Part shown: positions 22,896-35,376 of the stretch, one piece after another
Position numbering within the stretch: the first letter of the stretch is position 1
How the letters are laid out: the number at the start of each line of letters is the position of its first letter
Assembly (NCBI GenBank): GCA_004564215.1
Contig: CP024846.1
Coordinates: forward strand, 2,294,001 to 2,358,000
DNA length: 64,000 nt
Reading direction: 5' to 3'
Source of the DNA: Beijerinckiaceae bacterium
GTDB lineage: Bacteria > Pseudomonadota > Alphaproteobacteria > Rhizobiales > Beijerinckiaceae
Position numbers and translations under genes: made by a program
Notes under the pieces: generated by a model
Databases searched by the model: none
Seen by the model: the letters and a program-made list of their open reading frames with translations, nothing else
Told to the model about the DNA's origin: nothing

Positions 22896-25580
22896 TCAGC
22901 CCGTAACGGTTTCCGGTTGAACCTTGGTGTCCGAAAGGGCGATCATGCGGCGCAGTTCAGGCAGGCAGGATCCGCAATTCGTGCCGGCGTTGAGCCGCGC
23001 GCCGATCGCTTCGGTAGAACACGCGCCCGCGGCGATGGCCCGTTCGATCGCGCCCGCCTTGACGCCGAAACAGGCGCAGATCGTTGGGCTGGCATCGAAG
23101 TCGGCGGCGGCGCTTCGGCCAGCCAGCAGGAAGCGGCGTGCGGGTCCCTCAAGGCGCTCCAGCCGCCAGATTTCGGAAAGGGCGCTCCAAGCGGGGATTT
23201 CGCCATCGCGCCCCATGAAGATCACGGCATCGAGCCTTCCAGCCGTGATCAGCGCGGCCCGGAAAATGCCCCTTGCCCGATCGTGAAACTTGGCCTGCTC
23301 GGCCTTGCCGGCGGCGTTGCAGACCGCCTCGAATAGGGGTTGAAAAGCCTCGTTCGTCGCAAATCGCGCCGCATAGCCGTCCTCGATGGCGGTCCATGCC
23401 CAGACGCTGTCTCCCGGGAGCCTGAAACGACGGCGCGACAGCACAAACCCCTGCGCCGAGAATTCGACGGGGGCGAGCGCCGCTGGAATGGCCTTGGCAT
23501 CCGGCTGCCCGGAATAGGGGTCGACGATGCTATGGACCAGCGCGCCCGTGCGGGCACCTCCGGCGGTCTCGTCGCTCCAATGGATCGGGACGAAGATCCG
23601 GCCGGCAATTTGGGCATCTGTCACGACAACGCGCAGCACGGCGCTGCCATGTGCCGTGTTCACGCGCGCAAATCCGCCCTCGGCTACGCGCAATCTTCGG
23701 GCATCCTGCGGGTTCACCTCGACGAAGGGCTCGGGAATATGGCTGGCGAGTCTTGGCGAGAGGCCGGTTCGCGTCATCGTGTGCCATTGGTCGCGCACGC
23801 GTCCGGTGTTGAGAAGAAATGGATATTGCCCATCCGGCGCCTCCGCGAGCGCGGGTTCGGCAATGGCACTAAAGCGCGCGCGGCCCGAGGGCGTGAAAAA
23901 ACGCCCGTCCGCAAACATTCGTTGGGTCCCGCGCGGCGCATTTTCGGAAGCCGGCCATTGCACCGGTGAAAGCGCGGCATAGGCGGCGTCGCTGATCCCG
24001 GCTAGCGCACCGAGATCGAAATCGCGCGCGCCATGGTTTTCGAAGGCCGACAGGGCCGCGTGTTCCCGGAAAATAGCGGCTGGATGCTGATAGTCGAAGG
24101 CGGCGCTGAAGCCCATGCGCTTGGCGACCTGCGAGACGCTCCACCAATCGGGTTTCGCTTCGCCAGCGCAGGGCATGAATGCACGCTGCCGCGAAATCCG
24201 CCGCTCCGAATTGGTCACGGTCCCGTCTTTTTCGCCCCAGGCGGCGGCGGGCAGCAGCACATGCGCGCCGGCACCGATCGTGTCTGTCGAGCACACATTG
24301 TCCGAGATGACCAGAAGGTCGAGTTCAGCCATCGCCGCGCGGAAATGATCGGCGCGCGGCAGGCTGACGGCCGGGTTGGTGCCCATGATCCAGAGGGCCT
24401 TGATTTGGCCTCGCGCGATGGCGTCGAACATCGCGACCGCCTTGAGGCCCTCGCCCGAGGCCATGTGCGGCGCGTCCCAGAAGCGGGCGACCCGGTCCAT
24501 GTCGGGCGGCGAAAAGTCCATATGCGCGGCAAGCTGATTGGCGAGACCGCCGACTTCCCGCCCGCCCATGGCATTCGGCTGCCCGGTCAAGGAGAATGGT
24601 CCCGTCCCCGGCTTTCCAATACGCCCGGTGGCGAGATGGCAATTGATGATCGCAGCGACCTTGTCGGTTCCCTGCCAGGACTGGTTGACCCCTTGGCTGT
24701 AGAGTGTGACGACGCGGCTTGTCGCCGACCAGAGATCGAAGAACGCCATGATTTCTTGCGTCGAAATCCCGCATTTGGCGGCAATCGTTGCCAGATCCGG
24801 TGCGATCTGGCGCGCTTGCGCGAGTGCGGTCTCGAAATCTTCCGTGTGCACGGCGATGTAGGCGTGATCGATATGCTCGTGCTCGGCGAGGTGAACGAGA
24901 AGGCCGCAGAATAACACCCCGTCCATGCCGGGCTTGATCGTCAAGGCGAGATCGGCACTTTCCGTCGTGGCGGTGCCCCGGACGTCGATGCTGACGATGC
25001 GCGCGCCGCGCTGTTCGCGTGCCCGCACCATCCGCTGGTAGAGGATCGGATGGCACCAGGCGGCATTCGATCCCACCAGCACAAGAAGGTCGGCCTCATC
25101 GAGGTCTTCATAGCAGCACGGCACCGTATCCGAGCCGAAGGCCCGGCGATGGCCGGACACGGAGGAGGACATGCAGAGGCGCGAATTGGTATCGACATTG
25201 GCGGAGCCAATGAAGCCCTTCATCAATTTATTGGCAACGTAATAGTCTTCCGTGAGCAATTGCCCGGAAAGATAAAATGCCACCGCCTCAGGGCCATAAG
25301 TCTCGATTGTGCGCGAAAACCCGTCGGCGATGCGATCGAGGGCCGCATCCCATGTCGCGCGCTCGCCATCGACCATCGGATGCAAGAGCCGCGTCTCGGA
25401 TGCCAAGGTCTCGCCGAGCGCCGAGCCTTTGGAACAAAGCCGGCCCAAATTGGCGGGGTGGCTCGCATCACCGGCGATCGCTGCGCCTCCTGCGCCGTCC
25501 GGCGTTGCGACAACTCCGCAGCCAACGCCGCAATAGGGACAGGTCGTACGAACGCTTAAGGCTGCCGCATGGGCATTCAT
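22896..25580 (-). CDS. nasA: Assimilatory nitrate reductase catalytic subunit
   Basis: The 894-residue cytosolic molybdoenzyme reduces nitrate to nitrite. The N-terminal 4Fe-4S ligands are Cys14, 17, 21 and 49 (TCPYCGVGC...LCSKG). The Mo ligand is Cys136 in SRLCMSSSV. The C-terminus carries a BFD-like 2Fe-2S domain (ICACFGVKAGAIERAI... TNCGSCLPELRRMIAL), as in NasA of Klebsiella, which receives electrons. It overlaps the upstream flavoreductase gene by 1 bp (TGATG), so translation is coupled. It is the last gene of the nitrate operon. Confidence 0.95.
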   Translation of the reverse strand: MNAHAAALSVRTTCPYCGVGCGVVATPDGAGGAAIAGDASHPANLGRLCSKGSALGETLASETRLLHPMVDGERATWDAALDRIADGFSRTIETYGPEAVAFYLSGQLLTEDYYVANKLMKGFIGSANVDTNSRLCMSSSVSGHRRAFGSDTVPCCYEDLDEADLLVLVGSNAAWCHPILYQRMVRAREQRGARIVSIDVRGTATTESADLALTIKPGMDGVLFCGLLVHLAEHEHIDHAYIAVHTEDFETALAQARQIAPDLATIAAKCGISTQEIMAFFDLWSATSRVVTLYSQGVNQSWQGTDKVAAIINCHLATGRIGKPGTGPFSLTGQPNAMGGREVGGLANQLAAHMDFSPPDMDRVARFWDAPHMASGEGLKAVAMFDAIARGQIKALWIMGTNPAVSLPRADHFRAAMAELDLLVISDNVCSTDTIGAGAHVLLPAAAWGEKDGTVTNSERRISRQRAFMPCAGEAKPDWWSVSQVAKRMGFSAAFDYQHPAAIFREHAALSAFENHGARDFDLGALAGISDAAYAALSPVQWPASENAPRGTQRMFADGRFFTPSGRARFSAIAEPALAEAPDGQYPFLLNTGRVRDQWHTMTRTGLSPRLASHIPEPFVEVNPQDARRLRVAEGGFARVNTAHGSAVLRVVVTDAQIAGRIFVPIHWSDETAGGARTGALVHSIVDPYSGQPDAKAIPAALAPVEFSAQGFVLSRRRFRLPGDSVWAWTAIEDGYAARFATNEAFQPLFEAVCNAAGKAEQAKFHDRARGIFRAALITAGRLDAVIFMGRDGEIPAWSALSEIWRLERLEGPARRFLLAGRSAAADFDASPTICACFGVKAGAIERAIAAGACSTEAIGARLNAGTNCGSCLPELRRMIALSDTKVQPETVTG

Positions 25581-27223
25581 CAGTAAACGTCCGTCTGATA
25601 CCGGTGTTGTCCGCGAAGGTCTTTCAGGAACACCTTCGCGGCGGCGACGTCCATCTTCCCATGCTCCCTGCAGACATCGACGAGCGCCGCCTCGACATCG
25701 ACGGCCATGCTTTTGGCATCGCCGCAGACGTAAAAATGGGCGCCCTTGCTAAGCCATGACCAAAGTTCGGCAGCTTCCTCTCGCAATTTGTCTTGGACAT
25801 AGACCTTGCGTTCGCTTTCGCGTGACCATGCAAGCGACAGCTTGGTGAGCGTCCCAGCGGCGGCAAATCCCGACAGCTCCTCCTCGTAGAAAAAATCCGT
25901 CTCACGCCGCTGATGGCCGAAAAAGAGCCAGGCCGGTCCTTGGGCCTTGGCCGCCATGCGTTCCTGCAGAAACGCCCGGAAGGGTGCGATGCCGGTTCCG
26001 GGGCCGACCATGATGATCGGCGTGTCGCCATCGGCCGGCAACGCGAAGTCATGGGCGCGCTGAATATAGACTTTTACCTTGTCGCCGGGCTGCAAGCCCG
26101 TGCCTGCGAATGTCGAGGCGACGCCGAAGCGCTCGCGCCCGCCTATTGCATAGCGGACATGATCGATGGTGAGAGACACCCGTCCTTTGCCTGCGCGGTG
26201 CGAGGAGGCGATCGAATAGAGTCGGGGCTGCAAGGGTTCGAGGGCCTCGACGAAAGCTTCCGGATCGGGCCGCAACCGGGGGAATTTTTCAAGCGCCGCC
26301 AGAACATCGAGTGTCGCGGCATCGCCGTCGGGGTCACCCCCCTTGGCCAAGGCTTTTGCCTTCGCGCGGGATGTGCCGCCCGTGATGTAAGAAATCAGCT
26401 CGAACAGAACGTCGGGCGCCAATCCCAATGAGACGTCTTCCCGAAGGATCTGACGCAGGGTCTTGTCGGCAATCGGGAAATCGTGGGGCGCATCGATCGC
26501 CGCGATGACCGCATCGACCAGCCGCTCGTCATTGACCGGAAAAATGCCAAAGCTGTCGCCGGGCTCATAGTCGAGGCCGGCTTCCGAAATATCGAAGTCG
26601 ACATGATAAGTCGCCTTTGCGCTGCCCTCGCGATTCAGTCTTTTGCGCCCCAGAAAGGTCGCTTCGGCGGGCGTGTTTCTTGAACGGCCGGGACGGGTGT
26701 CGGCGTCCCTAGCCTTGCCAATCGCGGCGGCTTCGGCTTTGGCCTTGGCTTCGTCCGGATCGCTCGCGCCGCCTCCCATTTCCTCGATCAGAATTTTCAG
26801 CGTGCGCGCGGTTTCCTTGGCGCCCGGCACGCAGAGGTTCAAGCGCTCCTCGGCCTGGGTCGCGATGGCCGTTGCATAGTCCTCGCAATTGTAGCCGCAT
26901 TGCCCGCAGTCTTGTTGGGCCATTGCCGCCATCATGCGGCGGGCGAGCGGACGGCCTTCGGCGAGCTTCATCCGCTCGCCGAGCGGCAAGGTCTGATCAT
27001 GCCAAGGCGCGCCATCATCTGCGATATCGAGCGTAACGGCTTGTGGGCCGGACAGGGCGGCATAGACCGCGAGGTCCTGCGGGGGGAGGGCGACGCCGGA
27101 TTGCGGCTCCGGCGCGAGAAGCCCTGCGAAAAAGCCGTTGAGCCATGCACGCTGCTCGGGGGAGAAGGGCGCGGTCTCCGGAATGATCGGTGCCGGCGCC
27201 GGTGGGCGGTGAAAAGCGTTCAT
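25580..27223 (-). CDS. CysJ-like FAD/NAD(P)H reductase with a 4Fe-4S domain in place of flavodoxin
   Basis: The C-terminal 350 residues are a CysJ/ferredoxin-NADP-reductase unit (RLYSIASS FAD motif, GTGIAPFRAFLQER, and the VYVQ, YVCGD and final VY stretches). The N-terminus carries the short CysJ-type helix FSPEQRAWLNGFFAGL (residues 20-35). Instead of the flavodoxin domain of CysJ, residues 95-150 hold CGQCGYNC...C (Cys106, 109, 113, 131), an RnfB/PF04060-type 4Fe-4S domain. In this operon it is the likely electron donor for NasA and/or the sirohaem nitrite reductase (inference). The start overlaps the nirA stop (ATGA). A true sulfite reductase role is possible but less likely here. Confidence 0.85.
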   Translation of the reverse strand: MNAFHRPPAPAPIIPETAPFSPEQRAWLNGFFAGLLAPEPQSGVALPPQDLAVYAALSGPQAVTLDIADDGAPWHDQTLPLGERMKLAEGRPLARRMMAAMAQQDCGQCGYNCEDYATAIATQAEERLNLCVPGAKETARTLKILIEEMGGGASDPDEAKAKAEAAAIGKARDADTRPGRSRNTPAEATFLGRKRLNREGSAKATYHVDFDISEAGLDYEPGDSFGIFPVNDERLVDAVIAAIDAPHDFPIADKTLRQILREDVSLGLAPDVLFELISYITGGTSRAKAKALAKGGDPDGDAATLDVLAALEKFPRLRPDPEAFVEALEPLQPRLYSIASSHRAGKGRVSLTIDHVRYAIGGRERFGVASTFAGTGLQPGDKVKVYIQRAHDFALPADGDTPIIMVGPGTGIAPFRAFLQERMAAKAQGPAWLFFGHQRRETDFFYEEELSGFAAAGTLTKLSLAWSRESERKVYVQDKLREEAAELWSWLSKGAHFYVCGDAKSMAVDVEAALVDVCREHGKMDVAAAKVFLKDLRGQHRYQTDVY

Positions 27224-29010
27224 CCGTCTTGTCCTTCGGCGAAATTCTTAAGCGCGGCATTCTCATGCCGCGTCGTAAAGGCCTGAAAGCTTTCCGAAGG
27301 CGCGGCGCGATGTGCGAGATAGGCCTTGAGCAGGTTCTCCACCCGCAAGGGCGCATCCTCGGCTTTCACATCGCGCAAAATCTCCCGCCCGATCGCGCCT
27401 GTGGGTCCAAAGCCGCCACCGGCAACGATGTGGTAGCCATCGGTTGTATCGCCCTCGGCATTGAGCGCGACTCGGGCGGCGATGAGACCGATGTCGCCAA
27501 TGTAATGCTGCGCGCAGGAATGATGACAGCCGGTGAGATGGATGTTGACCGGCTGATCGAGATTGACGCGCGGTTCGCACCAGTTGGCGATCTGCTCGGC
27601 GTGGGCTTTGGTATCGGCGGCGGAAAACCGGCACCCGCGCGAGCCCGTGCAGGCGACGAGGCCGGCGCGGATGGAGGAGGCCCGCCAATCGAGTCCGGCC
27701 GTTTCCACCGCCGCCTTGGCATCTGCGAGACGGGCTTCGGGGATCCCCGAAATCAAAAGATTCTGCCAGACCGTGAGGCGCAAGTCTCCGTCGCCGAAGT
27801 CCCGCGCGATCGCGGCAAGCGCGCGCATTTGCGCACAATCCATTTTCCCGACCGGCAGAACAACACCAAGATAGAAGAGACCTTCCTGCTTTTGCGGATG
27901 CGCGCCGATATGCGCTTGGCGATCCTGCATTGGCCGGGAGAGAATATGCCTCTCGTCGACGCGGGAAATTTTTCGCCCGAGCTGCTCTTCGACCTTGGCA
28001 AGAAAACCGTCGAGACCCCGGCCCTCGGCGACGTAACGGTCGAGCACATATTTCAGCCGTGCCTTCGCCCGGTTGGTGCGGTCGCCTTCGGCAATGAAAA
28101 CCCGCACGATGGCATCCGCGACGTCCGTTGCCTCAGTGGGCCGGACAATGGCGCCCGTCTCCCGCGCAAGGTCCCGATGCCCGGTAATGCCGCCGACGAT
28201 CAGTTTGAACCACACGCCGGGATCAACGCCCGCACCTTCAGCGATTTCGACGGCTTGAAAGCCGATGTCATTGGTATCCTCAAGCGTCGGAACCGAACCG
28301 CCTCCATCGAAGGCAACATTGAATTTGCGGGGCAGCCCGGAAAGCGTGCGCTGGTTGAGAATGTGAAAGTGCCACGCGCGGGCAAACGGCCGCGTGTCGA
28401 TAAGTTCATTCACGCCGATCCCGGCGGTGGCGTCGCCCGTTACGTTTCGGATGTTATCGGCGCCGGCACCGCGCGAGGTCAGGCCCAAATCCTGCAGCCC
28501 TTCCACGACATTCAGGGAGTCGTGCGCGGCGATTTCGCGGATTTGCAGATTGGCGCGGGTCGTCACATGGGCATAGCCGCCAGCGAATTTTTCGGCGAGA
28601 TCGGCGACGCCGGCAAATTGCCAATGCGAGAGAATGCCGTTGGGGATGCGCAGCCGGCACATATAGCTGTCCTGGGCCGGCGCGACATAAAAGAGACCAT
28701 AATAACGCCAGCGGAAATTATCGGCGGCTTTCGGATATTCCTTGCGGTCGGCCTGGTCGCGCAGCCGATGATAGGCATCGAAGGGGTGTTCTTCGCGTTT
28801 CCATTTCTCCTGGTCGGCAAGTTTTTTGCCGCCTCTGATGAACTCGTCCTGGGCCAGCAGATGCGGGGCGTCGGGACCCGATGGCTTCGGCTCCAAAGCC
28901 GTCGGGGCGGGGCTGGCTGGAGGCAATAAACCTTTGCCCCCGCGCGCCTGGATGCCGGAGACAAATCCTTCGAGATAGCGTTTTTGTTCGGGAGTAAAAT
29001 CGCCTGACAT
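27220..29010 (-). CDS. nirA: NirA-type sirohaem nitrite/sulfite reductase
   Basis: The 596-residue protein is a one-chain sirohaem/4Fe-4S reductase that takes nitrite to ammonium with six electrons. The two cluster/haem motifs are VACTGSRGCRFS and LTGCHHSCAQHYIGD. Two ferredoxin-like sirohaem domains repeat in tandem. Its N-terminus has FTPEQKRYLEGFVSGI (residues 5-20), which closely matches the N-terminus of the neighbouring flavoreductase. This ATG has GAGG upstream; a GTG 12 bp earlier would overlap the previous gene by 4 bp. Nitrite is preferred over sulfite from operon context. Confidence 0.9.
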   Translation of the reverse strand: MSGDFTPEQKRYLEGFVSGIQARGGKGLLPPASPAPTALEPKPSGPDAPHLLAQDEFIRGGKKLADQEKWKREEHPFDAYHRLRDQADRKEYPKAADNFRWRYYGLFYVAPAQDSYMCRLRIPNGILSHWQFAGVADLAEKFAGGYAHVTTRANLQIREIAAHDSLNVVEGLQDLGLTSRGAGADNIRNVTGDATAGIGVNELIDTRPFARAWHFHILNQRTLSGLPRKFNVAFDGGGSVPTLEDTNDIGFQAVEIAEGAGVDPGVWFKLIVGGITGHRDLARETGAIVRPTEATDVADAIVRVFIAEGDRTNRAKARLKYVLDRYVAEGRGLDGFLAKVEEQLGRKISRVDERHILSRPMQDRQAHIGAHPQKQEGLFYLGVVLPVGKMDCAQMRALAAIARDFGDGDLRLTVWQNLLISGIPEARLADAKAAVETAGLDWRASSIRAGLVACTGSRGCRFSAADTKAHAEQIANWCEPRVNLDQPVNIHLTGCHHSCAQHYIGDIGLIAARVALNAEGDTTDGYHIVAGGGFGPTGAIGREILRDVKAEDAPLRVENLLKAYLAHRAAPSESFQAFTTRHENAALKNFAEGQDG

Positions 29011-29018
29011 CGACAGCC

Positions 29019-30236
29019 TCACGCGGCTTGAGGCAGCGCGAGCGCCGGCCCGAAGGCAAGCAGATCGCGCATTTGGGAGACGTCGGCATGCGAGCGGATC
29101 AGATCGAGGTACCAGAGCCCGTCGGCGCTATCGCCAAACAGTACAACGCCCTTCAGCCGGTGGTCTTCGATGACGAACTTTTTATAAAAGCCTGCGCCAT
29201 CATCCTCGATCATGACGACTTCGCTCGTCGGGCCTTCCATGAAGTCCCCGGCGGAAAACAGATTGACACCCGATACTTTTAGATTGGTTGCGAGTGTCGA
29301 GCCGGCATAGGTGGCGGTGGTCTCCCCGGCGAGGCGGCGGGCCAGGATTTTTGCCTGTTCATAGGCCGGCTCAACGAGGCCATAGACGTTGCTGCGATGC
29401 TCCGCGCATTCGCCAAGCGCGAAGATGTTGGCATCGCTAGTGGCGAGACCATCGTCAACGACGATGCCGCGACCAACCGCGAGCCCGGCCCGGCGCGCGA
29501 GCTCCACATGAGGCTTTATGCCGACCGCGCAGACCACGAAATCAGCGGGGAGAATACGCCCATCGGACAATTCGAGCGCCTTCGCACGGGCCTCTCCGAC
29601 AACCCTCGCCGTGTCGGCCCCGAGCAGAACCTCGACCCCCTTGGCCTCGATCGCGCTTTTCAAAAGGGCGGCCGCATGGGGATCAAGCTGACGCTCCATC
29701 AGGCGGTCCATCAAATGCACGAGTGTCACCTCGACCCCGGCCTTGGCGAGGCCATAGGCCGCCTCTATGCCGAGCAAGCCGCCGCCGATCACAGCCGCGC
29801 GGGCGCCCGGCCGCATCAGGGCGCGCATCGCGCCAACGTCGGCGAGATCGCGGAACGTCAAGACATTTTCCAGATCCATGCCGGGCTTCGGCAGCTTGAT
29901 CGGTTGCGAGCCGGTCGCCAGCACGAGCTTGGAATAGGAAAAGCATTGGCCGCTCGCCAGATTGACCGTTCGGCGATCCCGGTCGATTGAGGCAACTGCC
30001 TGTCCATCGAGGGTCGTCACGCCGCGCCCGCTCCACCAGTGCCGCGGCTTGAGTTCGAGCGAACCTTCGTCGACCTCTCCGGCGAGCAACGACGACAACA
30101 AAACGCGATTGTAGGAGAGCCGGGGTTCGGCGCCGATCACGATCACGCTGTAGCGGCCGAGAGCACGCCGAGTCAGCTCGTCGACGAAGCGGGTGGCAGC
30201 CATGCCGTTGCCGACAACAACCAATGGTTCGCTCAT
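29019..30236 (-). CDS. NirB N-terminal-type FAD-dependent NAD(P)H reductase
   Basis: The 405-residue protein resembles the FAD/NAD half of NADH-dependent nitrite reductase NirB (VVVGNGMAATRFVDEL, VIGGGLLGIEAAYGLAKAG, FALGECAEHR). It stops before the BFD 2Fe-2S and sirohaem parts, so it is a stand-alone reductase of pyridine nucleotide-disulfide type. It probably feeds electrons from NAD(P)H towards NasA or NirA (inference). The start MSEPLVVVGNG is used; a longer version would overlap the nrtD end by 32 bp. Confidence 0.88.
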   Translation of the reverse strand: MSEPLVVVGNGMAATRFVDELTRRALGRYSVIVIGAEPRLSYNRVLLSSLLAGEVDEGSLELKPRHWWSGRGVTTLDGQAVASIDRDRRTVNLASGQCFSYSKLVLATGSQPIKLPKPGMDLENVLTFRDLADVGAMRALMRPGARAAVIGGGLLGIEAAYGLAKAGVEVTLVHLMDRLMERQLDPHAAALLKSAIEAKGVEVLLGADTARVVGEARAKALELSDGRILPADFVVCAVGIKPHVELARRAGLAVGRGIVVDDGLATSDANIFALGECAEHRSNVYGLVEPAYEQAKILARRLAGETTATYAGSTLATNLKVSGVNLFSAGDFMEGPTSEVVMIEDDGAGFYKKFVIEDHRLKGVVLFGDSADGLWYLDLIRSHADVSQMRDLLAFGPALALPQAA

Positions 30237-30243
30237 GGCTATC

Positions 30244-31041
30244 TCACGCCGCCTCGACATAGCTGTGTCGTTCATAGAGGAATTTCAGCACCCTTTCGCG
30301 CAGGTGGATGTAGGTCTCGTCGACGGCGAGTTCGAGCCGCTGGCGCGGTCGCGCGAGCGGCACGTCGAGCACTTCGCCGATGCGCGCGGAGGGGCCATTC
30401 GTCATCATCACGATGCGGTCCGAGAGAAGCACCGCCTCGTCGACATCATGGGTGATCATGATGACCGTGTTGTTGAGCGTCGAATGGATGCGCATGACGC
30501 TGTCTTGCAAATGGGCACGGGTCAGCGCATCGAGCGCGCCGAAGGGCTCGTCGAGAAGGAGCACTTTTGGCTCCATGGCGAGGGCGCGGGCGATTCCGAC
30601 GCGCTGTTTCATCCCGCCGGAGATTTCCGAGACATGCTTGTCCTTGGCATGCGTCATCTGCACGAGATCGAGGTTATGCAGGCACCATTGATGCCGCTCG
30701 GCCCGCGATTTGACGCCCCCGAAAACCTTGTCGACGGCGAGCTTCACATTTCCATAGACCGTGAGCCAGGGCAGAAGACTGTGGTTTTGGAAGACGATCG
30801 CCCGATCGGGGCCGGGACTGTCGACTTGGCGGTCCTCCAGAAGGATCGCTCCGGTCGTCACGTCGGTCAGGCCCGCCAGAAGATTGAGGACAGTCGACTT
30901 GCCGCATCCGGAATGGCCAATGATGGAGACAAATTGGCCTCTTTCGATCGAGAGGTCGATGTCCTTCAACACTTCTGTCGTCGAGTTGCCGCGTGAAAAA
31001 CTTTTCGTGACATGATCAATTCTGAGATAGGGACGAGCCAT
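30244..31041 (-). CDS. nrtD: Nitrate ABC transporter ATP-binding protein
   Basis: The 265-residue ATPase has the Walker A motif GHSGCGKST, the signature SEISGGMKQRVGIARAL, Walker B VLLLDEPFGALDA and the switch His. It lacks the C-terminal NrtA-like sensor domain of cyanobacterial NrtC, so it is the NrtD/NasD type. It powers uptake of nitrate or nitrite with NrtA and NrtB. It lies 10 bp downstream of nrtB. AAGGG precedes the ATG. Confidence 0.92.
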   Translation of the reverse strand: MARPYLRIDHVTKSFSRGNSTTEVLKDIDLSIERGQFVSIIGHSGCGKSTVLNLLAGLTDVTTGAILLEDRQVDSPGPDRAIVFQNHSLLPWLTVYGNVKLAVDKVFGGVKSRAERHQWCLHNLDLVQMTHAKDKHVSEISGGMKQRVGIARALAMEPKVLLLDEPFGALDALTRAHLQDSVMRIHSTLNNTVIMITHDVDEAVLLSDRIVMMTNGPSARIGEVLDVPLARPRQRLELAVDETYIHLRERVLKFLYERHSYVEAA

Positions 31042-31051
31042 GGGGGCACCC

Positions 31052-31963
31052 TTAATTTGCAACTGTGCCACGGGTGACGAACGCGCCGATCGCGCCGACT
31101 AGGCGGTCAAGCACGAAGCCGGTGAGGCCAATGTAGCCGAGAGCAACGATGATGTCGGGCAGGCGCGAGGAATTCCAGGCATCCCAGATGAAGAACCCGA
31201 TGCCGACGCCGCCGGTCAGCATTTCCGCCGCGACAATGGCGAGCCACGCAAGGCCGATGCCGATCCGCAAGCCGGTGAAGATGTAGGGCGCCGCGGATGG
31301 GACCATGATCTTGGTAAAAAATTCAAAGGGATTGAGCCGGAGGACCCGCGCGACGTTACGATAATCATTCGGGATATTGCGAATGCCGACGGCGGTGTTG
31401 ATGATGATCGGCCAAATGCTCGTGATGAAAATCACAAAGATTGCCGAGGGATTGCTGTCGCGGAAAGCCGCGAGCGCAAGCGGCAGCCAGGCAAGCGGTG
31501 GCACGGTGCGCAGCACCTGGAAGATCGGGTCGAGCCCGCGCATCGCCCAAACCGATTGGCCGACCAGCGTTCCCAAAAGAATTCCGACGATGGACGCGAG
31601 ACCGAAACCGACCATGACGCGCTCGACGGAAACCAGGACACGAAAGCCAAGGCCGATGTCCTGCGGTCCATTGTTGAAGAAAGGATGCCGGATGAGATCG
31701 CCCGCTTCCGCCCAAACGACGGAAGGGGATGGCAGAGTGGCGCCCGACCGTGAACAAAGAATCTGCCAGATGAACAGGATGACGGCGAGCATCACCAGCG
31801 GCGGCAGAAGGTTCCCCATCACGCCCCGCGCCAGCGCCCGAGCGCCAAGGCCGGCGCTCTTCAGCAGCGAAACTTTGCGGGGCATCGAGGATAGCGGTTT
31901 TCGCTTTGGCGCAAGTCCATCCTGCGCGGCCGCAGTTTCTTGCTGCAAGGCGGAAAGGGACAT
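31052..31963 (-). CDS. nrtB: Nitrate ABC transporter permease
   Basis: The 303-residue inner membrane permease shows about six hydrophobic helices and the EAA-type loop (RNIPNDYRNVARVLRLNPFEFF). Family features such as FQVLRTVPPLAWLPLAL and FFIWDAWNSSRLPDI fit NrtB. The N-terminal 40 residues are polar and cytosolic. GGAG lies 7 bp before the chosen ATG; an earlier ATG overlapping the nrtA stop by 4 bp is also possible. It pairs with NrtA and NrtD. Confidence 0.92.
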   Translation of the reverse strand: MSLSALQQETAAAQDGLAPKRKPLSSMPRKVSLLKSAGLGARALARGVMGNLLPPLVMLAVILFIWQILCSRSGATLPSPSVVWAEAGDLIRHPFFNNGPQDIGLGFRVLVSVERVMVGFGLASIVGILLGTLVGQSVWAMRGLDPIFQVLRTVPPLAWLPLALAAFRDSNPSAIFVIFITSIWPIIINTAVGIRNIPNDYRNVARVLRLNPFEFFTKIMVPSAAPYIFTGLRIGIGLAWLAIVAAEMLTGGVGIGFFIWDAWNSSRLPDIIVALGYIGLTGFVLDRLVGAIGAFVTRGTVAN

Positions 31964-32007
31964 CAAAATCTCCGTCTGTGGGGGACGCTCGCTTGAAGCG
32001 TGTCGGG

Positions 32008-33327
32008 TCATGCGATGCGCTTGATCGCTAGGCTTTTGAGATAGGCGGATGTGTTCGCGGGATCGAAGACCTTGCCGTCGAAGAAGGTTTCCTTGCCGCG
32101 TGAAGAGGATTTCGGCACGTCGGCCGCGGCAACGCCAAGCGTTTTGGCGGCCTCGCGCCACAGATCCTCGCGGTTGACCTTGTCAACCAGCGCGGTGATG
32201 TCGGTTGAAGGATCGAACTTGCCCCAGCGAATATCTTCGGCCACGAACCAAGCATCATGGCTCTTGAACGGATAGGATACGCCGCCGGCCCAGAATTTCA
32301 TCGCGAGATCGGTGCCGTTGGCGACGCGTCCATTGCCGTAGTTGATGTCCCCCTTCAGCCGGCCGAGCACGTCGGCAACGGGCACGTTGAACCACTGCCG
32401 CTTGCCGAGAATGGCCGCCATCTCTTCTTTATTCTCGGGCTTGTCGCACCATTGCTGGGCCTCCATCACAGCCATCAGCAGCGCCTTCGCGGCCTTTGGA
32501 TTTTTGTCGACCCATGCCGCGCGCAGACCCAGCGCTTTTTCGGGATGCCGCTTCCAGATTTCGCCGGTCGTGCAGGCCGTAAATCCGATCCCCTGGTTGA
32601 CGAGTTGCTCGTTCCAGGGCTCGCCGACGCAGAAGGCGTCCATATTGCCGACCTTCATATTGGCGACCATTTGGGGCGGCGGCACAACGATGGTCGAAAC
32701 ATCCTTGTCCGGGTCGATTCCGCCGGCGGCCAGCCAGTAGCGGATCCACAGATCATGGGTGCCGCCCGGAAAGGTCATCGCAATCTTGACGTCCTTGCCG
32801 TCGGCTTTCTTCTTGGCGAAGATTTCCTTCAGCGGCGTGGAATCGAGCCCGACTTTCGACTCCTTATATTCGTTCGAGACCGAGATCCCCTGGCTGTCGT
32901 AATTGAGCCGCGCGAGGAGATAGATCGGCACCGGGACATTGTTTTGGGTGACCTTGCCGGTCGAGATCAGATAGGGCATTGGCGAAAGCATATGCGCGCC
33001 GTCTATGCCGTTCGATTCGGAACCGAGCACGAGATTGTCGCGCGTCGCGCCCCAGGACGCCTGCTTGGCGACCGACACGTCGGTCAGCCCGTATTTATCG
33101 AAGAGGCTTTTTTCCTTGGCGATGATGAGTGGCGCCGCATCGGTCAGTGCGATGAAGCCGAGCACCAGTTTTGTCACCTCCGGTCCCGCGGTCTCCGCGA
33201 ATACGCCGGCCGGAAAGGCGCTCTGCGCGGCGGCCATCAGCGCGGTGGTCCCGGCAAGGCTCGCGCTCGACGCGAGGAGCGACCGGCGTGTCAATCCGCC
33301 TGAGCCGCGCGAAGTTTTGGATTGCAT
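32008..33327 (-). CDS. nrtA: Nitrate ABC transporter substrate-binding protein (Tat-exported)
   Basis: The 439-residue periplasmic binding protein starts with a Tat signal (GGLTRRSLLASSASLAGTTALM) and matches NrtA: LVLGFIALTDAAPLIIAKEKSLFDKYGL, AYKES-type lobes and GNMDAFCVGEPWNEQ. It delivers nitrate to NrtB. GGAG 6 bp before the ATG decides the start over an ATG 12 bp earlier. It is the first gene of the operon, directly behind a sigma-54 promoter, leader hairpins and an intrinsic terminator. Confidence 0.94.
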   Translation of the reverse strand: MQSKTSRGSGGLTRRSLLASSASLAGTTALMAAAQSAFPAGVFAETAGPEVTKLVLGFIALTDAAPLIIAKEKSLFDKYGLTDVSVAKQASWGATRDNLVLGSESNGIDGAHMLSPMPYLISTGKVTQNNVPVPIYLLARLNYDSQGISVSNEYKESKVGLDSTPLKEIFAKKKADGKDVKIAMTFPGGTHDLWIRYWLAAGGIDPDKDVSTIVVPPPQMVANMKVGNMDAFCVGEPWNEQLVNQGIGFTACTTGEIWKRHPEKALGLRAAWVDKNPKAAKALLMAVMEAQQWCDKPENKEEMAAILGKRQWFNVPVADVLGRLKGDINYGNGRVANGTDLAMKFWAGGVSYPFKSHDAWFVAEDIRWGKFDPSTDITALVDKVNREDLWREAAKTLGVAAADVPKSSSRGKETFFDGKVFDPANTSAYLKSLAIKRIA

Positions 33328-33346
33328 GTAGAGCTCCATCACGAAC

Positions 33347-33398
33347 AAAAAAAAGCCGCTGGCAGACCGCAGCACGAATGCGATGGTCAGTCAGCGGC
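33347..33398 (-). terminator. Intrinsic terminator (attenuator) in the nrtA leader
   Basis: On the minus strand a 7-bp stem GCCGCTG/CAGCGGC (33392-33398 with 33355-33361), extended by an inner GACC/GGTC pairing, is followed by eight U (33347-33354). It ends only 19 bp before the nrtA ATG, so by default it would cut off the operon. This is the hallmark of antitermination control. Confidence 0.88.
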
Positions 33399-33410
33399 GT
33401 TGCTGGTTGT

Positions 33411-33454
33411 CGGGCCCGCCATTGGACCCGGCAGGGATCGTAGGGAGCCGATCC
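33411..33454 (-). promoter_or_regulatory. Two leader hairpins, candidate ANTAR (NasT) RNA target
   Basis: Two stems lie in tandem with a 4-nt linker. The first is GGAUCG/CGAUCC (33454-33435) with an 8-nt loop. The second is a 7-bp stem (33430-33411) with the hexaloop AAUGGC, which has A1 and G4 as known for ANTAR protein targets. Both come before the attenuator, and the region starts at the predicted transcription start. The first loop departs from the hexaloop rule. Confidence 0.6.
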
Positions 33455-33465
33455 GCAATGCACGT

Positions 33466-33481
33466 CGCAAGTCTTATGCCA
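33466..33481 (-). promoter_or_regulatory. Sigma-54 promoter of the nrtA operon
   Basis: TGGCATAAGACTTGCG on the minus strand matches TGGCAC-N5-TTGCA with GG and GC exactly 10 bp apart. The predicted start is about 33455, directly before the first leader hairpin. It suggests NtrC-type nitrogen control in addition to NasST. No NtrC site was identified. Confidence 0.75.
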
Positions 33482-33632: not shown

Positions 33633-34763
33633 TCAGGATCCGCCCTCGGCCTTCAGGGCAGCAAGGTAGGCAGGAATGTCGTCCGGCGAAAATGCCGGGC
33701 CGTCAAACGCAACCGGCATTTCCGTGGCGCCGGTCATCGAAGGCCCCAAACCCGGCGCATAGACGGCCGCGGCGGTCTTGGCGTTCGTCTCCGAATAGGC
33801 GGTTTGCCCGGCCGCCACCATCTGGGCGTAAAGCCAAAGCGCGCGCGCCGGATCCGCTTTGATCGCCCCCTCGTCGAGCCGCAGCCCGGTGGCGACCCGC
33901 GCGGGGCCGGAGGCAGGCGCATCGGCGCCGAGCACTTGATCAATGGTCTCGGCGCTCACGCCGGGCTCGGTCATGTTTGTCAGCAGGGTCACCAGGGCGC
34001 TCCGGTTGCTGGCGCTTCCCGCCCAGCGCGAGGCCTCGGCGATGGACTGCGCCAGCGAACGGACCTCTTCGGGGTGCGTCTGTGCCCAGTCCGCCCGGAG
34101 CGCCAGCACTTTTTCCGGACAGTCGCGGACAATGTCCGTCCCGGAATGGAGGATGATCCCGACGCCCGCCGAGACCGCCAGCGCGTTCCATGGCGCGCCG
34201 ACACAAAAGCCGTCCAACTGCCCCTTGCGCAGCGTTTCGACCATGAACGGCGGCGGCACGACGACGAGCCTTACATCCTGGTCGGGGTCGAGATTGCCCG
34301 CCCGCAACCACAGCCGCAATTGATAATGATGGCTGGAGAAAGGGAAGACATGGCCGAACGTGAGCGGCGGCTCCCCTTTCGCGAGGCGCGCCGCGGCGAT
34401 CCGGGCGAGCGCCTTGGCGGTGACTCGCGGGTCCCTCATGTCGCCCTGCGCTTCCTGGCGCAAAGCCTCGAACAAAACCTTCGAAACCGTAAACGCATTG
34501 CCGTTGAGCCCGAGTGCGACCGGCGCGACAAGCGGCATTTGCAGCTGGCCGATGCCGAGCGTGACGGCGATGGCGGCTGGCGCCAGCATATGGGCGGCCT
34601 CAAAATGACCGGCGACCAGTCGGTCGCGAATATTTGCCCATGAGGTTTCGCGCACGAGCTCGATGTCGAGGCCCCCGGCGCGCGCGAAGTCCCGCGCTTT
34701 CGCGACGTGGAGCAAGGCCGCATCGGTCAGCGGCACATATCCGATACGGAGCCGTGTCGTCAT
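33633..34763 (-). CDS. nasS: Nitrate/nitrite sensor NasS
   Basis: The 376-residue protein is NrtA-like (RIGYVPLTDAALLHVAKARDF, DGFCVGAPWNALAVSAG) but has no signal peptide, so it is cytosolic. In the NasST system NasS binds nitrate or nitrite and otherwise holds NasT inactive. It overlaps nasT by 4 bp (ATGA) and precedes the nrtA leader. Cytosolic NrtA paralogues next to an ANTAR protein are diagnostic of NasS. Confidence 0.93.
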   Translation of the reverse strand: MTTRLRIGYVPLTDAALLHVAKARDFARAGGLDIELVRETSWANIRDRLVAGHFEAAHMLAPAAIAVTLGIGQLQMPLVAPVALGLNGNAFTVSKVLFEALRQEAQGDMRDPRVTAKALARIAAARLAKGEPPLTFGHVFPFSSHHYQLRLWLRAGNLDPDQDVRLVVVPPPFMVETLRKGQLDGFCVGAPWNALAVSAGVGIILHSGTDIVRDCPEKVLALRADWAQTHPEEVRSLAQSIAEASRWAGSASNRSALVTLLTNMTEPGVSAETIDQVLGADAPASGPARVATGLRLDEGAIKADPARALWLYAQMVAAGQTAYSETNAKTAAAVYAPGLGPSMTGATEMPVAFDGPAFSPDDIPAYLAALKAEGGS

Positions 34764-35344
34764 CGCAAAAGCTCCGCAGCGGTGATGATGGATCGGGCAA
34801 TGTCGGCGATTTTCTTGTTTTCGTTCATCGCCGTCTGACGCATGAGGGCATAGGCTTGCTCTTCGGGTATGGACTTGGCCCGCATGATCAAGGCTTTCGC
34901 CCGGTCGATCGCCTTGCGGTCCTCGATCTGCGACTTCGCCTGTTCGAGTTCGCCCTTGAGCTTGGCGAAAACATTGAAGCGGCTGATTGTCGTGTCGAGA
35001 ATGGGCTTCACGCGGTCCTTGCGAAGACCATCGACGATATAGGCCGAAACGCCGGCGTCCATCGCCGCATTGATCATCGCGGTATCGGAATGATCGACGA
35101 ACATCGCCACGGGCCGCGCCACGGAGCGGCTCACGACGAACATTTGTTCGAGAACGTCGCGGCTCGGGCTTTCGAGATCGATCAGAATGACGTCCGGGTC
35201 GATTACCCGCAGGCGATCGAGCAACTCGGCGGTGTCGTCGATGCGCACCACGCTCATGTGTCCAGCCTCGCGCAAGCCTTCTTCGAGAACGGCCGCCCGC
35301 AACGGGTTTTTGTCGATGACGGCGATGCGCAGGTCCCGTTTCAA
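34760..35344 (-). CDS. nasT: ANTAR-domain transcription antiterminator NasT
   Basis: The protein has a receiver-like domain (RIAVIDKNPLRAAVLEEGL, DPDVILIDLESPSRD) and a C-terminal ANTAR helical domain (AKSQIEDRKAIDRAKALIM...ALMRQTAMNENKKIADIA). It binds hairpin pairs in leader RNA to prevent termination. No ATG fits: the start is probably TTG at 35344 with GGAG 5 bp upstream; another TTG lies at 35365. The expected target is the leader before nrtA. NasS controls it by protein contact. Confidence 0.93.
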   Translation of the reverse strand: MKRDLRIAVIDKNPLRAAVLEEGLREAGHMSVVRIDDTAELLDRLRVIDPDVILIDLESPSRDVLEQMFVVSRSVARPVAMFVDHSDTAMINAAMDAGVSAYIVDGLRKDRVKPILDTTISRFNVFAKLKGELEQAKSQIEDRKAIDRAKALIMRAKSIPEEQAYALMRQTAMNENKKIADIARSIITAAELLR

Positions 35345-35376
35345 AGAAACTCCATGAGCTTGCAAAAGCGCTCTAT

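Follow-up and report, generated by a model that had tools for sequence, protein, structure and literature searches.

A probable NasS-NasT-controlled transcription attenuator precedes the nitrate-assimilation operon of a bacterium related to Methylocapsa

Introduction

Between the genes of a NasS-like nitrate sensor and an NrtA-like transporter protein, the 64,000-nucleotide stretch of DNA analysed here (the window) carries a leader with several hairpins and an intrinsic terminator. This raises the question whether the leader is a nitrate-responsive antitermination switch and which of its hairpins NasT would recognise. A first-pass annotation had proposed that the nitrate operon, beside nasT-nasS, is preceded by a sigma-54-type element, an attenuator and an antitermination target of the NasT type; the analysis below supports this reading. 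The NasT target itself is now placed on a different pair of hairpins.

Results

Locus and predicted proteins

All features of the switch and of the operon lie on the minus strand, with the leader between nasT-nasS and nrtA (Table 1). On the 3' side of the leader, the genes follow in the order nrtA, nrtB, nrtC, the NirB-like FAD protein, nirA, the FAD/NAD reductase and the molybdopterin oxidoreductase; nrtA has an ATG at 33327 and a second in-frame ATG at 33339. Upstream of the nitrate genes, the receiver-ANTAR protein adjoins the NrtA-like sensor, which is the NasS-NasT arrangement, and the nasS product is related in sequence to PDB nitrate/bicarbonate transport chains, including NrtA. A perfect inverted repeat, GTGCGG-AATG-CCGCAC (33573-33558), stands between nasS and the nrtA promoter.

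Table 1. Coordinates of the promoter, leader and operon features in the window.
Feature	Position	Strand	Basis
-24/-12 (sigma-54 type) promoter element TGGCATAAGACTTGC	33467..33481	-	perfect match
Predicted transcription start (+1)	near 33455	-	inferred from distance to -12 element
H0, 5' hairpin GGATCG[GCTCCCTA]CGATCC, 8-base loop	33435..33454	-	6-pair stem
H1 (putative ANTAR P1) CGGGTCC[AATGGC]GGGCCCG, A1/G4 hexaloop, 7 pairs	33411..33430	-	covariance model match
H2 (putative ANTAR P2, antiterminator hairpin) CAGC[AACGCC]GCTG, A1/G4 hexaloop, 4 pairs	33392..33405	-	covariance model match
Intrinsic terminator hairpin	33355..33398	-	5' arm GCCGCTG 33398-33392, 3' arm CAGCGGC 33361-33355
Terminator run of eight U	33347..33354	-	sequence
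Shine-Dalgarno GGAG of nrtA	33334..33337	-	sequence; GGAGC invariant in 5 genus leaders
nasT, receiver-ANTAR antiterminator	34760..35365	-	PF03861 4.9e-16 and PF00072
nasS-like nitrate sensor	33633..34763	-	PF13379 7.7e-71
nrtA-like nitrate ABC transporter binding protein	32008..33327	-	PF13379 2.8e-109 for 32008-33339
nrtB-like nitrate ABC permease	31052..32161 (open frame; real start probably further in)	-	TIGR01183 9.9e-90, above cut-off
nrtC/D-like nitrate ABC ATPase	30244..31071	-	TIGR01184 1.7e-100, above cut-off
NirB-N-terminal-like FAD/NAD oxidoreductase	29019..30275	-	TIGR02374 3.5e-118, below full-length cut-off of that model
NirA-family nitrite reductase	27220..29022	-	NF007126 3.4e-292, above cut-off
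FAD/NAD-binding reductase	25580..27223	-	PF00667, PF00175
Molybdopterin oxidoreductase, probable assimilatory nitrate reductase	22896..25580	-	PF00384, PF01568, PF04879, PF04324

NasT carries the sole ANTAR domain detected in the genome (30 of 30 candidates scored), and its closest solved relative by sequence is the response regulator 6wsh, which we take to be EutV. In the alignment, the EutV contacts R142, K143, K149, E160, Y164 and M172 are kept in NasT as R150, K151, K157, E168, Y172 and M180, and K147 is replaced by Arg155; the EutV numbering is that of PMC8934654, and the alignment offset of two is our own reading. Since NasT has the canonical hexaloop contacts, a canonical target fits.

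Hairpins of the leader and their match to the ANTAR target

The -24/-12 element, a start just before a hairpin, hairpins of which one has an A1/G4 loop, and a terminator with eight U had all been annotated before; the elements are in place, and the start is predicted from its distance to the promoter. Both of the tandem hairpins reported then (H0 and H1) exist, but a third one, H2, had been overlooked. H1 and H2, joined by the 5-nt linker ACAAC, have the properties of an ANTAR dual hexaloop, namely stems of at least three pairs, six-base loops, and A1 and G4 in both loops. They also share the further properties of such targets: the linker is short, H2 excludes the terminator, whose 5' arm consists of H2 loop positions 4-6 and the H2 3' arm, and an ANTAR protein is encoded in the genome. 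An inner stem returned by a simple terminator scan was rejected as a wrong terminator call. Rfam scans at gathering and E-value thresholds returned no relevant family.

We built a covariance model (R1) from 25 leaders, leaving out all five genus members, the window's included. The model matches H1 and H2 at 33429-33391 with 47.6 bits (E 1.2e-8), the next match in the window having E 0.84; in the genome search, the same site has E 6.3e-7 and the next one E 0.54 (150 of 3999 first-look candidates scored). Across the 25 leaders, 96.9% of the cells are paired, and 12 cells are changed on both sides compared with 2.1 in shuffles, a count that none of 500 shuffles reached. Four of five measures indicate covariation of the H1 and H2 base pairs. 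The remaining measure counts pairs with changes on both sides; its value of 3 was matched or exceeded in 43 of 500 shuffles. The genome yielded a single ANTAR protein and, among the 150 of 3999 candidates scored, a single strong RNA target, so that a second target may exist.

Conservation in nrtA leaders of the order

For comparison, 170 nrtA leaders were assembled, consisting of that of the window, 80 from named genomes (the best 80 of 503 confirmed matches), and 30 and 59 from family genomes, where the nrtA search matched 168 of 397 genomes. Some of these leaders repeat one another: judged by the last 220 nt, there are 161 different ones, and L082 comes from the same genome as the window, with other cut points. 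Conservation of the stems had been set beforehand as the refutation test, and the stems of H1 and H2 are kept in relatives. Under a strict rule, a hexaloop H2 overlapping the terminator is present in 144 of the 170 leaders and absent in 26 (an earlier rule, at a score of at least 21, gave 149 of 170); among the 144, an upstream A1/G4 partner is found in 117 and none in 27. This rule misses the H1 and H2 of L004, L025, L033, L062 and L081, which become visible when one terminator mismatch is allowed, and it counts the middle hairpin of L065 as a partner. As the rule itself demands A1/G4, the letters at these positions are no evidence, and a separate letter control was used: among hexaloop hairpins within 75 nt upstream of H2 (stem of at least five pairs; the set included some wrong H2 choices), A1/G4 loops occur in 85 of 141 leaders, compared with one to eight leaders for each of the 15 other letter pairs.

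More than one upstream A1/G4 hexaloop is seen in six leaders under the strict rule. Three A1/G4 hexaloop hairpins stand in a row in L013, L019, L020, L022 and L051 (Ancylobacter, Xanthobacter), and the four Ancylobacter leaders among them have few T after the candidate terminator. Conceivably, three A1/G4 hexaloops were the ancestral state and lineages later exchanged partners, a speculative reading.

Of 15 genomes of the genus, five have nrtA and ten give no match to it at E 1e-100, so that this gene of ABC nitrate uptake is patchily distributed in the genus. In all five genus members with nrtA, the -24 GG, the H1 core, H2 and the terminator arm CAGCGGC are kept, and H2 is invariant. H0 with its octaloop is restricted, among these five, to the window and L083, where the stem has two compensatory pair changes. 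L084, which is the Methylocapsa aurea leader (L002) by its last 220 nt, has a different hairpin at this place; the identity of these two leaders suggests that the genus of the window may be Methylocapsa. In L085 and L089, H1 follows immediately on a -24/-12-like element, with no H0-like hairpin seen by eye in between. Although their surroundings differ, the window and L083 have exactly the same octaloop and closing bases. Genus-wide, the 12-base sequence made up of the H0 loop and its closing pairs shows no enrichment, with 10 occurrences in 15 genomes compared with 12 for the reversed pattern.

Promoter

The element TGGCATAAGACTTGC is the sole perfect TGGCAY-N5-TTGC match in the 64-kb window. 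The -24/-12 pattern is weak by itself, with 16 window matches at up to one mismatch versus 10.4 expected. Among 161 leaders, TGGC-N7-TTG lies within 150 nt upstream of H2 in 108 and is absent in 53; spacings of 3-6 and 8-10 gave counts of 0-4. The -12 motif reads TTGT (22) or TTGA (18) rather than TTGC in 40 of the 161, with the TGGC spacing unchanged, and these may be variant -12 motifs in this order. The genome encodes one RpoN DNA-binding domain, and a search for an NtrC site gave no convincing candidate, the best agreeing with the consensus in 12 of 17 positions. By analogy with relatives, the leader promoter would be used by sigma-54.

Folding and chance controls

When folded without the terminator 3' arm, the leader forms H0, H1 and H2; in the fold of the whole leader, the terminator replaces H2. 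The two predicted folds are mutually exclusive, with -47.6 kcal/mol for the terminator versus -39.3 kcal/mol for H2, a difference of 8.3 kcal/mol. Stepwise folding from +1 at eleven lengths gave H2 at nt 64, 68, 75, 85 and 95, and the terminator instead at nt 101. The whole leader RNA is more stable than its shuffles (z -3.27; 2 of 200 as good), and once the 3' arm of the terminator is left off, its stability no longer stands out (z -1.61; 11 of 200 as good).

Tandem A1/G4 hexaloops alone are not rare, with one in the window versus a mean of 1.6 per random window. The window has one tandem A1/G4 pair in which the second hairpin overlaps a terminator; 60 random 64-kb windows have none. The H0 stem alone is likewise weak, its six pairs being reached by 658 of 5000 shuffles. 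Single elements are therefore weak by themselves; their combination is not chance, because the overlap of tandem pair and terminator is absent from the random windows and the covariance model matches the site.

Linker architecture across leaders

The linkers between hairpins of the H1-H2 type fall into two groups: among the 117 leaders, 50 have a linker of at most 14 nt (0-4 nt long in 35 of these), and the other 67 have one of 18-36 nt. A hairpin of at least four pairs lies in the linker of 57 of the 67 long-linker leaders; counting distinct leaders only, there are 45 short linkers, 57 long ones with a hairpin and 8 long ones without. In Rhizobiaceae-type leaders (L008, L012, L014, L015, L017, L018 and others), a hairpin separates the two hexaloops, which stand at a distance of about 46-51 nt. 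In 18 such leaders, picked for a similar middle hairpin, this hairpin covaries, three of its seven pairs being changed on both sides; the H2 stem is invariant in this set and therefore uninformative on covariation. In the EutV experiments, antitermination was lost when 20 nt were added to the linker (PMC8934654) and was weaker when the linker measured 3 or 14 nt (PMC3369931). From these experiments, EutV would be expected to fail at the Rhizobiaceae-type hexaloop spacing. The portions of the open-access literature searched contained no description of structured linkers between ANTAR hexaloops.

Discussion

Proposed mechanism

The analysis shows conserved and covarying sequence elements, predicted folds that exclude each other, a single ANTAR domain and a single strong target found, and we consider it very probable that the leader is a NasS-NasT-controlled transcription attenuator before the nitrate-assimilation operon. 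NasT binding and its release by nitrate are modelled on relatives, namely the EutV model and the P. denitrificans NasT data. RNA polymerase with sigma-54 would start near 33455, and in the emerging leader H0, H1 and then H2 would fold, H2 being complete at about nt 64. When nitrate is absent, NasT would be held by NasS; the terminator 3' arm, emerging by nt 101, would take the 5' arm from H2, and the eight U would end transcription. Nitrate or nitrite would free NasT, which would then bind the A1/G4 hexaloop of H1 and then that of H2. NasT-bound H2 would stay shut, and the polymerase would read on into nrtA.

Alternative readings of the leader

The first-pass annotation had paired H0 with H1, and so the 8-base loop of H0 was read as a variant NasT target. 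That assignment fails, the hexaloop pair being H1 and H2 by the model match; these two hairpins form the putative ANTAR (NasT) target, as judged from sequence. A NasT that recognises H0 and H1 through a variant octaloop could point to H0 as a clean 6-pair hairpin just before H1 and to the same octaloop in L083 above a compensated stem. It is nevertheless extremely improbable, given the canonical second hexaloop 3' of H1 that overlaps the terminator, the lack of A1/G4 in H0 and its place outside the terminator overlap, the absence of such a hairpin from the promoter-H1 interval of L085 and L089, the different hairpin in L084, and the canonical contact residues kept in NasT. H0 was also tried as the hexaloop partner of H2 and rejected, as it has no A1/G4 and is missing from two of the five genus members. 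Because genus members differ at this place (two without H0, one with a different hairpin), H0 is an optional 5' hairpin outside the ANTAR pair and not a NasT target; it is perhaps a stabiliser of the 5' end. We give very little credence to a second control layer in which the H0 loop and closing base (GGCUCC) pair with the nrtA Shine-Dalgarno GGAGC(U/C) and slow translation: six such pairs, one of them G-U in the window, are possible in both octaloop species, but six pairs are also reached by 2867 of 20000 shuffled loops, which is not significant, and GGAGC is invariant also in genus members without the octaloop.

A simple attenuator, or a terminator that acts constitutively and in part, located in the nasS-nrtA interval and not in need of NasT, would agree with the stable terminator formed in the full-length fold and with loci where the RNA is kept without nasT in the upstream stretch. 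Among the loci of the best 80 of 503 matches, 16 have no nasT within that stretch (at least 2.4 kb in 75 of the 80), and the RNA pair is still present in 12 of these 16; L009, L016 and L050 lack both. A terminator alone, however, would need neither A1/G4 hexaloops at fixed places nor a nasT-nasS neighbour, and 64 of the 80 loci have both genes on the upstream side of nrtA, so that we regard this explanation, too, as very improbable compared with NasT-dependent antitermination through H1 and H2.

Implications

Naming H1 and H2 as the target hairpins matters in that bench tests would change the right loops, and a complete NasT switch is hereby described in a bacterium related to Methylocapsa. 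The leader comparison also raises a testable question, namely how far apart, and with what between them, ANTAR hexaloops may stand. Tentatively, and with the balance leaning against it, the nrtA leader of this order may be a modular array in which an extra hairpin is placed either before the first hexaloop (H0) or between the two (Rhizobiaceae, linkers of about 25-36 nt), NasT working across a structured spacer with a hand-over unlike that of EutV.

Comparison with known systems

The closest parallels are as follows. In Paracoccus denitrificans, NasT binds RNA of the nasA leader, and expression depends on hairpin HI (PMC3795266, PMC5424462). The arrangement of the window is similar, with nasT-nasS directly upstream and a hairpin leader before the nitrate operon; its operon, in contrast, begins with the ABC nitrate transporter nrtABC. 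The P. denitrificans authors place an NtrC site at nasT and had identified none at nasA, whereas the window has a -24/-12 element at nrtA.

The E. faecalis eut (EutV) RNA likewise has two short A1/G4-hexaloop hairpins, the second overlapping an intrinsic terminator (PMC3369931, PMC8934654). The linker is 5 nt in the window versus 5-12 nt in eut, and the window's H2 (AGCAACGCCGCUG) agrees in 10 of 13 positions with the shared E. faecalis AGCAANGRRGCUY. Unlike in eut, where a sensor kinase signals, nitrate would act through NasS in the window; its leader also has an additional 5' hairpin (H0), and H2 loop positions 5-6 are CC.

The Klebsiella NasR/nasF leader, as described in PMC3369931, is also a case of nitrate-responsive ANTAR antitermination of an assimilatory operon; NasR is one protein, with a NIT sensor domain fused to ANTAR, whereas sensor and antiterminator are separate proteins in the window. 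Bradyrhizobium diazoefficiens/japonicum shares the alphaproteobacterial NasS-NasT pair and predicted hairpins in nitrate-gene leaders (PMC6759348, PMC4724949). Several operons (nos, nap, narK, nirA) are under the action of NasT in Bradyrhizobium, whereas the genome of the window has one strong target among the 150 of 3999 candidates scored. Set beside these systems, the leader is well supported as a complete and ordinary NasT antitermination leader of an already known type.
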